64,000 bases of DNA from an uncultured Nitrosomonadaceae bacterium. Its GTDB lineage: Bacteria; Pseudomonadota; Gammaproteobacteria; Burkholderiales; Nitrosomonadaceae. Under the pieces are notes generated by a model. It had not been told where the DNA came from. It did not search any database and saw only the letters and a program-made list of their open reading frames with translations. A program made the position numbers and the translations under genes. Below are positions 2,239 through 52,634 of the stretch, in pieces. Within the stretch, counting starts at the first letter, position 1. The number at the start of each line of letters is the position of its first letter. The DNA lies in the NCBI GenBank assembly GCA_943787405.1, contig CALSMH010000003.1:1-64000 (forward strand), read 5' to 3'.

Positions 2239-3204
2239 ATGGCAAATGAAAAGAAAGGTAAGCAAAATAAGGTAGAAACTAAGGAAGAAGAGAAAAAGCC
2301 TATGGAAGATCAAGAAATAATGACTGAATTACCTACAGATGTCGCACCTGCTGCAAATAATAGTGGAAAAAATGCAATGTTTATTTCTTTAATTGCACTA
2401 GCTGTGGCTGCTTTTGGTTTTTTTGCCCCTGCACCATCAGCCCCAAAGACTGATTTAAGTAAAATTCAGAAAAAAATTGATAAGTTATCTAAAACAGCAA
2501 TAAAAAAACAAGAAGGATTGCGGCATGAAATGGATAAAATATCTAGCAGTGTTCTTAAAGAGCAAGCAGGAATAAAGGAAAACCTTGACTCGCTCTATTC
2601 AAGTGTAACTAAGGCACACTCTATTTTGGAGAAGATGAATCTATCAATTACTGAAACTAGGCATATTTTAGATTATCAAATTGCCGATGCTGCAGAAAAA
2701 TTTGAACAGCAAAAAAATGAAGTAAGTCTTGGATCTGGTTTCAGTAATTTGATTACAGAAATACAACCATCTCTGACAATTTACTGTAAGCGTGCCAATG
2801 TTTCATACATTAAATTAGCTAAAACAGCTAAATCAGACACAAATACAGTTGCCGTTGATTGCAATTTCAATAATTCAGGAGCGTTAAAAGCAAATATTGT
2901 TCCAGGATCAATAGTGATGATTGGCGGTAAGGGTCAAAAAGTTATAGATAATGCAGTTGAGCGTATTGATAACGGTGAAGAAACAACTATCCTTCCTGGC
3001 CGTAGTAATGATAAGCAATATCATATTGTTCTTACAACTGATGGCGCCTCAAAAATGAAAGGTGGTGTCATGAAAATGTCTTTCCAGTCATCTACAGATA
3101 AAGCAGCTCTCGGTATAATAAAACGTAAAACTAATAAAGAAATTTCAGGTGAGCAACTTAGAGAATTAACTAAGAAAAGCCATATTTTTTCATTTCTTCT
3201 TTAA
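2239..3204 (+). CDS. Single-pass membrane protein with coiled coil, unknown function
   Basis: The 321-residue protein opens with about 40 Lys/Glu-rich residues (starting MANEKKGKQNK), has one transmembrane helix at about 47-66 (ending FGFFAPAP), and then about 100 residues of heptad-like helix with repeated K-I-x-K-L patterns. The C-terminal third is beta-rich and contains one SIVMIGG and one GRSND stretch. Topology is probably a cytoplasmic N-tail with a periplasmic coiled coil and C-terminal domain. The start is supported by AGGAGA eight bases upstream. No family recognised. Confidence 0.72.
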   Translation: MANEKKGKQNKVETKEEEKKPMEDQEIMTELPTDVAPAANNSGKNAMFISLIALAVAAFGFFAPAPSAPKTDLSKIQKKIDKLSKTAIKKQEGLRHEMDKISSSVLKEQAGIKENLDSLYSSVTKAHSILEKMNLSITETRHILDYQIADAAEKFEQQKNEVSLGSGFSNLITEIQPSLTIYCKRANVSYIKLAKTAKSDTNTVAVDCNFNNSGALKANIVPGSIVMIGGKGQKVIDNAVERIDNGEETTILPGRSNDKQYHIVLTTDGASKMKGGVMKMSFQSSTDKAALGIIKRKTNKEISGEQLRELTKKSHIFSFLL

Positions 3205-3265
3205 TCTACCTGATCCATTTGTAAATGGATAACCCGGTTCTCTTAGGGTTAAATTAATGTTTATA

Positions 3266-3296
3266 CTGTGCTGTTGGCTTGCTTGCCACAGCACAG
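3266..3296 (+). terminator. GC-rich hairpin after the coiled-coil gene
   Basis: CTGTGCTGTTGGC at 3266-3278 pairs with GCCACAGCACAG at 3285-3296, with one bulged T and a 6-base loop. It lies about 60 bases after the stop at 3204. There is no immediate T-run, so it may be a transcript-end stem rather than a strong intrinsic terminator. Confidence 0.45.
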
Positions 3297-3380
3297 CATG
3301 GCATTCACCACCTCCATCTTTTTCATTTGGGAAATATAAGGAATTAGTACAGAGTATTTAATGTATAAGGAAATTAAATA

Positions 3381-4070
3381 TTACTGTATCGGAGAATCAA
3401 AATATTGGTCTGGATAAGGTTCATCTTCTAAAGTAAAGTGCCACCACTCTTTTTCATGTGGTTTAAATCCATGTTTTTTCATCAGATGATATAAAAGTAT
3501 TCTGTTTGCACGTTGCTGTGGTGTTACTGCAAAGCTCTGTGGTCCTGAATCAGGGCCAAAAAAATCCCAATCTGTACCCATGTCTAACTCTATAGGGTTG
3601 GTTTTATGTAATGAGACAATTGATACATCTACGGCGCTTCCTCTAGAGTGACTTGAATTATCAATCAGATAGCCCTCCCTAAATAGACTTTCTTTATTCA
3701 TTTCAGGGTAATACTTTAATTTCATTTTGATGTCATTAGGGTCTTTAGCCCAGCGCATAAAATGATCAACTGCTTGTTGAGGTCGATATGCGTCGTAAAC
3801 TTTCAATCCAAGCCCAAAAATGGCTAGTTCAGATTGAACATTCCTAAGTGCATCCGCACCTTGCAAAGAGAGATAAGCTTTTGGGCTCTTGTAACCATCA
3901 ATACGTGCTCCGATAAAATTATTAGCAGTGAAATATCGTATATCGAGATTTATAGTGGGAATATGCACACTAAGTTCAACGAAAGTATCAGGAATTTTTT
4001 TAGCCATAGCATTTGTTAAGATCATGCAACTAATTATAATAAGAAAATAAAGTATTCTCTTGCTATACAT
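3381..4070 (-). CDS. ddpX: D-alanyl-D-alanine dipeptidase, VanX/DdpX family (M15D)
   Basis: The product should be a zinc dipeptidase that splits D-Ala-D-Ala. The M15D signature SxHxxGxAxD is present as SSHSRGSAVD, and the second metal/catalytic segment EWWHF lies near the C-terminus. The family arginine region (AYRPQQAVDHF) is also present. At 229 residues it has the usual size. A signal peptide (residues 1-23, ending ANAMA) places it in the periplasm, which fits recycling of D-Ala-D-Ala from peptidoglycan rather than glycopeptide resistance, where VanX is cytoplasmic. It sits 17 bp after a DASS transporter gene on the same strand, so the two may be one transcript. No vanH or vanA partner is present. 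Confidence 0.93.
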   Translation of the reverse strand: MYSKRILYFLIIISCMILTNAMAKKIPDTFVELSVHIPTINLDIRYFTANNFIGARIDGYKSPKAYLSLQGADALRNVQSELAIFGLGLKVYDAYRPQQAVDHFMRWAKDPNDIKMKLKYYPEMNKESLFREGYLIDNSSHSRGSAVDVSIVSLHKTNPIELDMGTDWDFFGPDSGPQSFAVTPQQRANRILLYHLMKKHGFKPHEKEWWHFTLEDEPYPDQYFDSPIQ

Positions 4071-6728: not shown

Positions 6729-6998
6729 TTAGTTCGATACTCGTATCTGATTCAGAATAGAGCCGCGTATACAGTGAGCCGCAAATGTTTCAAATTGATG
6801 ATCATATGAGCCTTTATAACGCTTGATTGCATCCATTAGTCCAGCTATTCCAGCCTGAATAAGGTCATCCATTTGTACACAGGCAGGTAGTTTTGCCATT
6901 ATGTGCTGGGCTATACGCTTTACAAGCGGTGTAAATTGCTGGATAAACTGTTCTTCGTCAATGTTTTCTATAGAGGCACTTAAGGTAGAAGTATTCAT
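6729..6998 (-). pseudogene. Truncated FliA-type sigma factor: region 2 only
   Basis: The 89-residue frame matches the N-terminal part of flagellar/stress sigma-70 factors: PLVKRIAQHIMAKLP, then MDDLIQAGIAGLMDAI (region 2.2, core binding), then FETFAAHCIRGSILNQIR (regions 2.3-2.4). It stops where full sigma factors continue with about 130 more residues carrying regions 3 and 4. So it could bind core RNA polymerase but lacks the -35-reading domain. No flagellar genes are nearby. It may be a relic, or a retained short protein: the frame has no internal stop. No strong ribosome binding site precedes the ATG. Three small frames on the same strand lie just upstream, so it may belong to an XRE-regulated transcript. 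Confidence 0.7.
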
Positions 6999-49311: not shown

Positions 49312-49557
49312 GTTGACGAATATAGTATCACTATCAGGCCGTAGTAACCCTCAAGATTTCTTTGCTCAATTTGGGTTAAGGGCAGATTATAAGGAGTAGG
49401 TGCAATATACACCACAATATCGATAAATAACCGTATCTGATGATACTACGAAAAAGCTATTGCATCCCTGCATAAATTTTTATATTTTCCGCCTATTTAC
49501 ACAAAATATATAACAATTAACACTAGCAATTTCTCGTTCAGCTGTTAATGTTGTACA

Positions 49558-50685
49558 TTAATTCATTGAATCTCTAGAAGACATTTCCATCGCATTTACT
49601 GGAATTGAAATGCTTATTTTAGTCCATTTTTCTGATTTAGCAGTAATCAACAAGTAACCCCCAAGCTGCTGGCAACGCTCACGCATACCACGAATTCCGA
49701 AAGATTTTGATTTTTTAATATCCTGATCTGATATGCCACGACCATTATCGGTTACCTCGAGATATATCCATTCATCTTTCTCAGAAAGACGAACTTGCAG
49801 CCTTGAAGCGTTAGCATGCTTTGATATATTTGCTAGGGTCTCCTGAAAAGCCCGAAAAATAGCTACTGACAAATCGGAGTCCAATGGAATTTCATCACTA
49901 TCACAAGTGACCCGATACCTGATCTTTTCGCGCTCACAGAATTCCTTTGTCTGCCATTTAATAGCAGCCACAATCCCACAGTCCAGTATCTCCGGATGTA
50001 AATCCATTGATATTCTACGTGAGCTATCAATAACCTGATCGACTAGAGACTCAATTAATCCAGCTTTTTTTATGTAAGTAGCGGATTTATTTGCTACATC
50101 CTCATCCCATGAAAGTAATTCATTTTTAATTGTAGTTAGAATATCTCCAATATCACCATCTATTTCTTTCGCAACCCTTGCGCGCTCCTGTTCTTTAATT
50201 TTCTGTAAATATGAAGAGAGTTCAGCCAATTGCTCGCGAGAACTGGCTATTTCAGTTTCAGCCAACTTGCTTCTAGTTACATCAATTACAATTCCATCCC
50301 ATAAAACAACATCATCAGAAATTCTTTTAGGGGTCGCACTTAAGCTAATCCACTTTAATTCAGTATTTTTATCAAGCTGAATGCGGCCCTCCCAGTGCCA
50401 AGGAGAAAGGCTATTCGCTGAGGCAGCCATTGATTCACTATAAGATAACTTATCCTGGGGCATCACTACATCCAAAAATAAGTCAGGCTTGTCCACAATA
50501 GCATCTGGGTGCAACCCAAGCAGCATTAATGAACCATCACTTACATATGGAAAGCTTATTTTATTTTGCTCCTTAAGCATAAACTGAAACATTACTCCAG
50601 GAAAATTTGAGGAAATTGAACGGAGCCGCTCCTCATTTTCCTGTAAATCTAATTGTAATTGTTTTAATTTATCCGGCATGATCAA
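49558..50685 (-). CDS. PAS histidine-kinase-like protein lacking the phosphoacceptor His
   Basis: The 375-residue cytoplasmic protein has a PAS domain at about 15-140, a HisKA_3 dimerisation helix and a HATPase domain with N-box (ETLANISKHA), G1 (DNGRGIS) and G2 (GIRGMRER). In HisKA_3 kinases the motif is ER-x-R-I-A-R-E-L-H-D-x-x-G-Q; here it is ERARVAKEIDGDIGD, so Asp 176 (codon 50160-50158) stands where the His should be, and the next Asp is Gly. The ATP site looks intact. It may be an inactive partner or an ATP-bound sensor. No response regulator gene adjoins it. A stem-loop lies just upstream at 50732-50749. Confidence 0.85.
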   Translation of the reverse strand: MIMPDKLKQLQLDLQENEERLRSISSNFPGVMFQFMLKEQNKISFPYVSDGSLMLLGLHPDAIVDKPDLFLDVVMPQDKLSYSESMAASANSLSPWHWEGRIQLDKNTELKWISLSATPKRISDDVVLWDGIVIDVTRSKLAETEIASSREQLAELSSYLQKIKEQERARVAKEIDGDIGDILTTIKNELLSWDEDVANKSATYIKKAGLIESLVDQVIDSSRRISMDLHPEILDCGIVAAIKWQTKEFCEREKIRYRVTCDSDEIPLDSDLSVAIFRAFQETLANISKHANASRLQVRLSEKDEWIYLEVTDNGRGISDQDIKKSKSFGIRGMRERCQQLGGYLLITAKSEKWTKISISIPVNAMEMSSRDSMN

Positions 50686-50731
50686 TATTATTAGGTTGCC
50701 AACATAGTAACTATTGTAACGTGTAGTAGGT

Positions 50732-50749
50732 GCTCTTAGTATTAAGAGC
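50732..50749. promoter_or_regulatory. Hairpin or operator upstream of the kinase-like gene
   Basis: GCTCTTA and TAAGAGC surround GTAT, a perfect 7+4+7 inverted repeat 47 bases before the kinase-like gene start and 218 bases after the ccmI stop. It could be a leader hairpin, a protein site, or a late end signal for the ccm transcript. Confidence 0.35.
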
Positions 50750-50966
50750 GCTAATCTTAAGAAGAAATAATTATAAGAGATGTATTCGAAGAAGGGGAAT
50801 TAAAATGTTATGCAGGATTGTGAGGTTTAATCGAAATAAACGGAGGGGATTAAGGCTAAATAAACTCTATTACTTCTGACTGTGTTTTGTGCTAGCTTTT
50901 CATAGCTAAATAAAATTAAAACCCATTGCTACAAATTTTAATTTTATTCATTAATATGAAGTGAAA

Positions 50967-52634
50967 TTAGGGCACCTGTTTGTTAATTAGGATCTTGACA
51001 CTCTGATCACCAATTCTGACCACCTCACTAAAGCCCTGTAAGTCACCACTTACAGGCACAGCCTTTCCTGATTTTGTAACTCTTGCGCTAATTATAACTT
51101 CAGGAAAGCTAGTTAGCTTCATATTAGGATTCATGCCCATCCCATCTTTTAGTGTGAATTTAGCAGGCAAATCTTTAGCCTGTAAAATTACAATGGCAAG
51201 GGGCATTCTCGGGCCACTTTTTGCTCGAGCATAAATATAAAGTTTATCTTCAGGCAAGACCTTAGCTAACAGGGCAGGGCTAATATTGACGACCCCTGAA
51301 ACTGATGGAGATGAAATTTTCTTAGTATTTTTCACTAGTGCATTATCACCGACTTGCTGGTCAATCAGAATGCTGACATTCTGATCACCTATCTTAATTA
51401 CTTCACTGAAGCCCTGTAAGTCACCATTTACAGGCATAGCCTTTCCGGATTTCGTAACTCTTGCGCTAATTATAACTTCAGGAAAGCTAGTTAGCTTCAT
51501 ATTAGGATTCATGCCCATCCCATCTTTTAGTGTGAATTTAGCAGGAAAATCTTTAGCCTGTAAAATTACAATGGCAAGGGGCATTCTCGGGCCACTTTTT
51601 GCTCGGGCATAAATATAAAGTTTATCTTCAGGCGAGACTTTAGCTAACAGAGCAGGGCTAATATTAACCACCCCTGAAATTGTTGGGGATGAAACTTTAT
51701 TTGATGGATCTTCATCCGACTTGGGAGATTGTTCTTTAGCTATTAATACGTCACCCCCATTACCTGATGCTAGCAACCTTGCTTGTTTAATACTTCCCGA
51801 AACAGATTTTGCTAGCTTAGATTCTGCTGGAATATTGGCAAGTAATTCGTCCCAATACACAGTAGCCTGCATAAATTCACCTTTCTCGAATTCTGCAGTG
51901 CCGGCCAGTGCTAAAGCTTTAAGGTTTTTTGGATCAATACTTAAAGCCTTATTTATTAACTCAACAGGCTTTCCCATTAAGCTACCACCCTGAGTCATTG
52001 CAAAGACATCTGCGAGATTAACAAGCGCCTCAGGGCTATCAGGTGATTTTGCGAGTAACTTTGCATAAACATCTTTAGCCTCATCAAAACGACCCATAAT
52101 TGCATAGGTTTGCCCCAACATTTTCCAACCTTCTAAATTATCTGGCTCATTTTCAAGACGCTTTACAAGATTATCAACCACTGAAGAAATCTCCTGATGG
52201 CCTTCACCTTCAGGAGCTAAATTATTTCCAACTAACTCCATTTGTTTTACTGGTGGTTGTGGAAGTAGTGCCTTGGTATTACCTAATAACAAATAAAGGG
52301 ATACTGCTGATACAGGTATTAACAATGTAAGCACAATTGGGGTTACAAGACTTCGTTTAGTATTTAGTATTTTCTCTGAAATAGAACTTTTTTCAGGCAT
52401 ATCCAGCATCATTCGTTGCTGCAATTCTTGCTTACTTTGGTTGTATTGTTCCTGATTTAAGATGTCATTACGTAAGTCGTTATCAAGCTCTGATATTTGA
52501 TCCTGATATATACTGACATTTGTTGAATTACGTGCAACGCCTGTATCATTTTCCTTATTTCTTAATAAGGTAGGAAGAATAAATAGTAAAGATGCAACTA
52601 TAAAAATTCCAGCAAGAACCCAAAATAACGTCAT
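50967..52634 (-). CDS. ccmI: CcmI/CycH cytochrome c biogenesis protein with duplicated C-terminal domain
   Basis: CcmI holds apocytochrome c for haem attachment. The 555-residue protein has two membrane helices (about 3-21 and 95-113) around a helical domain, TPR repeats at about 150-280 (GWKMLGQTYAIMGRFDEAKD) and a beta-rich C-domain. That domain occurs twice in tandem: about 314-427 and 440-555, each starting with SGVVNISPALLAKV and containing KLYIYARAKSGPRMPLAIV. The DNA repeats are 378 bp apart and almost identical. The gene ends the ccm operon and overlaps ccmH by four bases. Confidence 0.92.
   Translation of the reverse strand: MTLFWVLAGIFIVASLLFILPTLLRNKENDTGVARNSTNVSIYQDQISELDNDLRNDILNQEQYNQSKQELQQRMMLDMPEKSSISEKILNTKRSLVTPIVLTLLIPVSAVSLYLLLGNTKALLPQPPVKQMELVGNNLAPEGEGHQEISSVVDNLVKRLENEPDNLEGWKMLGQTYAIMGRFDEAKDVYAKLLAKSPDSPEALVNLADVFAMTQGGSLMGKPVELINKALSIDPKNLKALALAGTAEFEKGEFMQATVYWDELLANIPAESKLAKSVSGSIKQARLLASGNGGDVLIAKEQSPKSDEDPSNKVSSPTISGVVNISPALLAKVSPEDKLYIYARAKSGPRMPLAIVILQAKDFPAKFTLKDGMGMNPNMKLTSFPEVIISARVTKSGKAMPVNGDLQGFSEVIKIGDQNVSILIDQQVGDNALVKNTKKISSPSVSGVVNISPALLAKVLPEDKLYIYARAKSGPRMPLAIVILQAKDLPAKFTLKDGMGMNPNMKLTSFPEVIISARVTKSGKAVPVSGDLQGFSEVVRIGDQSVKILINKQVP
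50980..51690 (-). repeat. Tandem 378-bp duplication inside ccmI
   Basis: The stretches about 50980-51312 and 51358-51690 align at a constant offset of 378 bases with few mismatches; GGAAAGCTAGTTAGCTTC at 51103 recurs at 51481. The unit is 126 codons, so frame is kept. The low divergence shows a recent event. Confidence 0.88.

Follow-up and report, generated by a model that had tools for sequence, protein, structure and literature searches.

Sensor kinases of the HisKA_3 family, among them DesK (PMC5231405), NarX, UhpB, and MctS, combine a DHp with a CA domain, carry His followed by Asp at the phosphoacceptor site, and are paired with NarL-type regulators. About 1% of kinases are substituted at the phosphoacceptor site, with Gln and Asp among the substitutes (PMC5361649), and His is absent from 56 of 16,025 HisKA_3 domains (0.3%; PMC12632262); the latter figure is a count, and the section that gives it describes no single case and no selection test. 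A literature search for HisKA_3 pseudokinases gave no papers, and none of the titles and abstract openings that we saw describes the case presented here. Two pseudo-histidine kinases from other bacteria provide the nearest comparison. The first of them, DivL of Caulobacter, has a DHp domain of the HisKA type. It shows a histidine kinase fold with PAS and CA domains, a Tyr in place of the phosphoacceptor, and retained N, G1, and G2 boxes, binds the phosphorylated regulator DivK, and acts on the kinase CckA (PMC4211667, PMC5361649). RocA of group A Streptococcus is also kinase-like and works without phosphoacceptor function, keeps a His in its DHp domain, is located in the membrane, and has the kinase CovS as its interaction partner (PMC7028121).

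Here we describe a protein encoded in a 64,000-nucleotide stretch (the window) of the 1.45 Mb genome of an uncultured Nitrosomonadaceae bacterium (G000), whose genus includes Nitrosospira sp. SZUA-177 (G003) and Betaproteobacteria bacterium N075bin73 (G004), and whose family includes Nitrosomonas. The window protein has the DHp-CA architecture of the HisKA_3 kinases listed above, without either their His-Asp pair or their NarL-type regulator. Like DivL, it retains the kinase fold, PAS and CA domains, and N, G1, and G2 boxes around a replaced phosphoacceptor; unlike DivL, its DHp domain is HisKA_3-like, its docking face is altered, and a cognate regulator was not found in G000. It shares with RocA a kinase-like form lacking phosphoacceptor function, whereas a partner kinase comparable to that of RocA is not visible in G000. 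Its orthologues in Nitrosomonas, G003, and G004 (L055-L063) differ from it in having His-Asp and a downstream regulator motif. By its sequence, the window protein does not pass as a working HisKA_3 kinase; it matches the broader class of pseudo-histidine kinases.

A HisKA_3-like gene with an altered phosphoacceptor box

The gene and its parts are as follows:

49558 to 50679, minus strand: putative pseudo-histidine kinase gene (N-terminal helix, PAS, DHp without His, CA), from the ORF, profiles, and an AlphaFold2 model
50320 to 50547, minus strand: PAS_3 match, residues 47-122, absent from the G002 orthologue, from profile search and alignment
50101 to 50205, minus strand: DHp helix 1 region, residues 161-195, with His, +1, +5, +9, +12, and +16 changed in G000 and G002, from alignment and model
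50155 to 50160, minus strand: GAT GGT replacing the phosphoacceptor His codon and the next Asp codon, from codon alignment
49597 to 49866, minus strand: CA (HATPase_c) domain retaining the N, G1, and G2 residues, from profile search and alignment

The open reading frame at 49558-50685 on the minus strand was confirmed, with 375 aa when read from TTG 50685, as in the ORF list. ATG 50679, which gives 373 aa, is the more probable start, since the starts of the homologues in G003 and in the congeneric genome G002 align to it; residue numbers given here count from TTG 50685 (subtract 2 for ATG numbering). The DHp box reads ERARVAKEIDGDIGD, and codons 50160-50155 are GAT GGT, where all 11 intact orthologues aligned have CAT or CAC and then GAT, and therefore each loss lies one base away from CAT GAT. 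We compared 30 homologous loci, which were the best matches from 61 genomes and included the window gene's own locus. His-Asp stands at the two positions in 28 of these, and the two loci without it are the window gene (Asp-Gly) and the G002 gene (Gln-Asn). All nine loci from named genomes (three of them contigs of G003, G004, and G028) carry His-Asp, and a regulator motif follows just downstream in all nine. These results agree with the original prediction that His 176 and the following Asp were each lost by a single-base step at a place where the family has His-Asp. When we asked whether relatives share the change from His to Asp, the answer was divided: the loss is shared, as His to Gln in G002, and the Asp itself is not.

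The pair of His and then Asp expected of a functional HisKA_3 kinase is thus absent from the window protein, and DHp helix 1 contains no other His. The HisKA_3 profile, which should exceed its Pfam cut-off of 24 in such a kinase, reaches only 13.9 bits, compared to 47.4 in the intact G003 orthologue. HATPase_c (46.2 bits, cut-off 26.4) and PAS_3 (29.1 bits, cut-off 25.6) are both above their cut-offs, and the best NCBIfam matches, MctS and UhpB, are both below theirs. The orthologues in Nitrosomonas, G003, and G004, with 519-529 aa, are 54-69% identical to the window protein. The HATPase_c domain has its N (N286), G1 (D313, G315, G317), and G2 (G330) residues all present, so the ATP-binding boxes are intact in sequence, as first proposed. 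DivL illustrates that intact boxes are no proof of ATP binding: its ATP boxes are kept, yet its affinity for an ATP analogue is more than 19-fold below that of most kinases (PMC4211667).

In an AlphaFold2 model of the monomer (10 sequences; mean pLDDT 75.8, pTM 0.43), a single unbroken helix is predicted from residue 135 to residue 189 (ATG numbering), passing through the altered box. Foldseek matched this model to LOV-histidine kinases, to DesK (with the H188V and H188E forms among the hits), and to the CA domain of VraS (rmsd 2.6; TM 0.75, normalized by target length), with DivL at rank 33. Sequence, model, and fold matches together point to the histidine kinase fold without a phosphoacceptor that marks pseudo-histidine kinases.

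Locus history and the surviving two-component systems

The window gene is the only gene seen between ccmI and dapC in G000. This interval measures 12.8 kb in G003, 1.66 kb in G000 (about 11 of the 12.8 kb are missing relative to G003), and about 0.1 kb in G006, where no such gene lies between ccmI and dapC. In G003, the interval encodes a kinase of 778 aa (HK1), a receiver protein of 156 aa, a 529-aa kinase (HK2; REC-PAS-HisKA_3-HATPase, REC by Pfam), the GerE regulator of HK2, FliT, a YcgR-type protein, FliA, FlhC, FlhD, another receiver-domain ORF, and an ORF that is presumably GGDEF-like. HK2 and its regulator share their stretch with flagellin-type and other flagellar genes in eight of the nine stretches read from the genus that includes G028, the exception being G016. 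Two flanking features record what happened to this interval in the window:

50613 to 50751, minus strand: homology to G003 HK1 (its 5' flank and roughly 22 initial codons), with the junction near 50613-50617, from blastn
49312 to 49557, minus strand: 3' spacer resembling the G003 dapC upstream region, the regulator and flagellar-type genes of G003 being absent here, from a shuffle test

By blastn against G003, the DNA from 50751 to 50613 matches the HK1 5' flank and first codons (query 2250-2388), and from 50617 downward it matches HK2 (query 2384-3418). The window gene therefore joins the beginning of HK1, in frame, to the PAS part of HK2, bridging about 3.5 kb present in G003. On the other side of the gene, none of 300 shuffles scored as high as the similarity between the 3' spacer and the G003 dapC upstream region. 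A scan for promoters and terminators gave no more sites than in shuffles. The G002 orthologue has the same fused start followed by an in-frame loss of PAS, leaving 245 aa; sensing through PAS, as once suggested for the window protein, thus cannot be essential in the clade. We also considered loss of the gene in G001, G005, and G007, which gave no match, and found this uninformative given draft and contig limits: the contig of G005 begins within ccmI, that of G007 breaks off within HK1, and G001 is 72% complete with no ccmF found in it. In the neighboring ccmI of the window, an internal direct repeat (50974-51273 and 51352-51651; 300 nt, 91% identical) doubles the C-terminal module, giving 555 aa vs 429 in G002.

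A ccmF tree, which took in only genomes with full ccmF, groups G002 with G000 and G005 at 100/99, nested within G003 and G004, and places G006 outside all five at 98/97. G005 belongs to the same species as G000 (98.6-98.9% DNA identity) and is a broken-up draft. G000 and G002 have in common the fused start, P192S, and G354W, and from these characters and the ccmF grouping the regulator was most simply lost before the two lineages split and the His after. The changes from CAT to GAT (G000) and from CAT to CAG (G002) take one step each, vs three steps in all if the ancestor had already changed to either codon; the same count holds at the next codon. By parsimony, the simplest reading is a regulator lost before the split, followed by two separate His-Asp losses.

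The earlier observation that no regulator gene adjoins the kinase stands and can be extended, since no GerE domain was matched anywhere in the G000 genome (97.65% completeness), in which three receiver domains were found. The cognate NarL-type regulator of a HisKA_3 kinase is accordingly missing from this assembly. The lost regulator is NarL/GacA-like in the intact relatives, with UvrY/SirA/GacA as the best NCBIfam match (under cut-off). It had no match at E 1e-3 to the only GerE regulator of G002, which is FixJ-like by best NCBIfam match (under cut-off). Receiver-domain matches across the genus number 12 in G003, 13 in G004, 10 in G007, 5 each in G001 and G002, and 3 each in G000, G005, and G006. 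The G000 regulators are of the PhoB (over the NCBIfam cut-off), NtrX, and ActR/PrrA/RegA types (both under cut-off). Three other sensor kinases, PhoR (over cut-off), a RegB-like protein (under cut-off), and a third beside the NtrX-like regulator, each adjoin their own regulator. HATPase_c has seven matches in G000; three of them we take, from their first residues, to be gyrB, htpG, and mutL, and no second HisKA_3 kinase was seen among the seven. A paralogue or partner elsewhere in G000 was also sought, and the protein search returned only the window protein itself, alongside the three receiver domains. FlhA was found in none of the eight genomes of the genus and FlhC in two (G003 and G004). 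G003 retains FlhD, FlhC, FliA, FliT, and a YcgR-type gene (L031, 4624-17000), and FlhA was not found in this 95% complete draft; the regulon in G003 may have outlived the flagellum.

Altered residues and selection

Across 27 intact homologues (L028, interrupted by a stop codon, was dropped beforehand), 29 DHp-CA residues are invariant, and each of the two species has altered three: H176, D177, and R230 in G000, and H176, D177, and K289 in G002. The chance that three random changes hit both H and D is 0.0074 per species. The 11 closest intact orthologues have 97 invariant residues, of which G000 has changed 13 and G002 has changed 21; ten are altered in both species, including G354, which is Trp in both; the P value of this overlap is 5.5e-6, or 7e-5 without the two identical changes, and kinship makes both values optimistic. 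Helix 1 has 23 invariant sites, six of which differ in both species, namely the His and positions +1, +5, +9, +12, and +16, and the remaining helix 1 invariants are kept, except I171 in G000 and R170 in G002. The five positions after the His form a single helix stripe, a tightness reached by only 199 of 26334 sets of equal size; once the His is added, the test is not significant (7875 of 100947). In DesK, helix contacts to the regulator include Asp +1, Gln +5, Ser +8, and Leu +12 (PMC5231405). Taken with these contacts, the stripe suggests release of the surface of DHp helix 1 that docked the regulator, with the other helix 1 invariants largely kept. A regulator-docking surface of the DivL type would, from these altered sites, not be retained.

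The same helix bears on a possible phosphatase reaction, for which D-x-x-x-Q is the motif after the His (PMC8199190). At these positions the window protein has G-x-x-x-D, the G002 protein N-x-x-x-K, and the 11 intact orthologues D-x-x-x-G. Phosphatase action is unlikely because the HisKA_3 motif D-x-x-x-Q is absent, and partly so already in the intact orthologues.

Codon models were fitted to 209 DHp-CA codons from seven genomes, with three of the nine aligned outgroup orthologues entered. Omega was 0.116 for the G000/G002 clade, taken as three branches (stem, G000, and G002), and 0.052 elsewhere; a single ratio was worse by 2ΔlnL 9.5, and omega = 1 on the clade was worse by 105. The G002 branch alone gave omega 0.10 (omega = 1 worse by 28), and the stem 0.07 (worse by 15.6). 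On the near-zero G000 branch, free omega ran to its bound (7.4), and fixed lengths were used instead. Omega was 0.42 at length 0.1 (omega = 1 rejected by 13) and 0.21 at length 0.2 (rejected by 57), and at 0.05 omega = 1 was not rejected; 1833 codons of neighboring genes, as a guide to this length, give 0.11 to 0.23 neutral changes per site. With G002 left out, the G000 lineage and stem together gave 0.109 (omega = 1 rejected by 12), and the PAS of G000 gave 0.18, with omega = 1 weakly rejected (2ΔlnL 3.7). In three-genome fits over the two end branches, six neighboring genes ranged from 0.05 to 0.15 and the window gene, like ccmI, stood at 0.15. Constraint is therefore weaker than in the intact relatives, yet inside the range of ordinary genes here. 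Because parsimony leaves the His in place on the stem, part of the measured constraint predates the loss of the His. Further points count against a retained function: the clade omega is about twice that of the intact relatives, the window gene stands at the top of the range of its neighbors, R230 (G000), K289 (G002), and G354 (both species) are changed as well, and G006 lacks such a gene between ccmI and dapC. Overall, plain decay fits poorly because clade omega is low (0.12) with omega = 1 rejected by 105 and the ATP boxes are kept, as anticipated when the gene was first described as not simply decaying.

What the protein may do

We consider it moderately probable that the window gene encodes a pseudo-histidine kinase kept for a role free of phosphotransfer. 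Of a flagellar-type two-component cluster, it is the one gene left between ccmI and dapC; relative to G003, the NarL/GacA-like regulator is gone and the kinase is fused in frame to the start of a neighboring kinase gene. In the clade, purifying selection holds most of the remaining invariant positions of the DHp and CA domains, including those of the ATP boxes. The protein would then still dimerize, bind ATP, and act by conformation on a partner other than a response regulator. Once no regulator remained to accept phosphate, losing the His may have become tolerable or even advantageous, and the protein may now have a different job.

The most serious competing explanation, which we regard as unlikely but well worth keeping in view, is a slow relic: with its regulator lost the kinase became useless, the His and Asp were hit first, either by chance or because an unpaired active kinase is harmful, and the rest is not yet broken. 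Such erosion would suit the disappearance of the regulator, REC domain, and flagellar-type genes, the missing PAS in G002 and missing gene at the locus in G006, the doubling of clade omega over intact relatives, and a G000 end branch that fits omega 1 if very short. It sits less well with the long G002 branch, where omega is 0.10 and omega = 1 is rejected by 28, with reading frames open in both species, and with just one change per species among the 27 other invariant DHp-CA residues, and it would not predict changes clustered on one helix face. An error in sequencing or assembly at the His codon is scarcely credible. The gene is seen in one assembly of the species, since the contig of the same-species G005 starts inside ccmI, but two adjacent codons and four more helix invariants are changed with no frameshift, and an independent genome, G002, lost the same two residues. 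We rejected sequencing error on the Gln-Asn at His-Asp in this syntenic orthologue, and chance or error is generally disfavored because G002 lost both residues to different ones.

Other readings would leave the protein with a part in two-component signaling. That it serves as a decoy, docking partner, or phosphatase for a surviving system (PhoB, NtrX, or RegA types), in the manner of DivL or RocA, seems to us quite improbable. DivL and RocA, themselves pseudo-histidine kinases, do act on another kinase (PMC4211667, PMC7028121), and the HisKA_3 phosphatase reaction needs no His (PMC12632262). Against this, none of the three other kinases has a best family match close to the HisKA_3 kinases, invariant sites of the docking face are altered in both species, and in the phosphatase motif the Asp at +1 is lost and the +5 residue, Gly in 11 intact orthologues, is Asp or Lys here. 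The original idea of an inhibitor or scaffold for another kinase is not supported for a kinase of its own type: the three other kinases each lie beside their own regulator, and no second HisKA_3 kinase was seen in G000. It is very improbable that the Asp or another residue is the phosphoacceptor, or acts as a fixed phospho-mimic locking the DHp domain in one state. DesK H188E has been crystallized (PDB 3gie, a Foldseek match), so the fold tolerates an acidic residue at this site, but G002 has Gln there and no acid, the Asp at +1 is also lost, helix 1 offers no other His, and the genome has no GerE regulator.

A second remnant of the G003-type cluster lies elsewhere in the window:

6729 to 6998, minus strand: 89-aa FliA fragment with sigma-70 region 2 only, from profile search

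The fragment ends after sigma region 2 (Sigma70_r2 46.8 bits, cut-off 24). It also occurs at syntenic positions in G001, where the copy runs off the contig, and in G002, and was not found in G005 (same species, broken-up draft), G006, or G007. Omega on its branches is 0.13, with omega = 1 rejected by 2ΔlnL 88, even though searches of these genomes found neither FlhA nor FlhC. A single lineage thus seems to maintain, under constraint, two pared-down regulatory cores derived from the same cluster. Any connection of the window kinase with the FliA fragment is speculative. GHKL anti-sigma factors of the SpoIIAB/RsbW kind bind a sigma factor via their GHKL ATPase domain, and by analogy the His-less ATPase dimer and the region-2 sigma-28 might jointly make a phosphorylation-free, ATP-gated transcription regulator; the one observation behind this likeness is the co-retention of the fragment. 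This pairing, taken together with its milder form in which the ATPase core would serve some other partner outside two-component signaling, is a long shot.

As HisKA_3 domains without His are rare, it matters that a single genus offers a series from the full pair (G003 and G004), through genomes with no regulator and the His lost in two ways (G000 and G002), to one with no gene at the locus (G006). Natural mutations in helix 1 set the regulator-facing surface apart from the structural core. This series allows one to ask what an ATP-binding kinase core does without phosphotransfer, and whether loss of a regulator makes loss of the phosphoacceptor likely.
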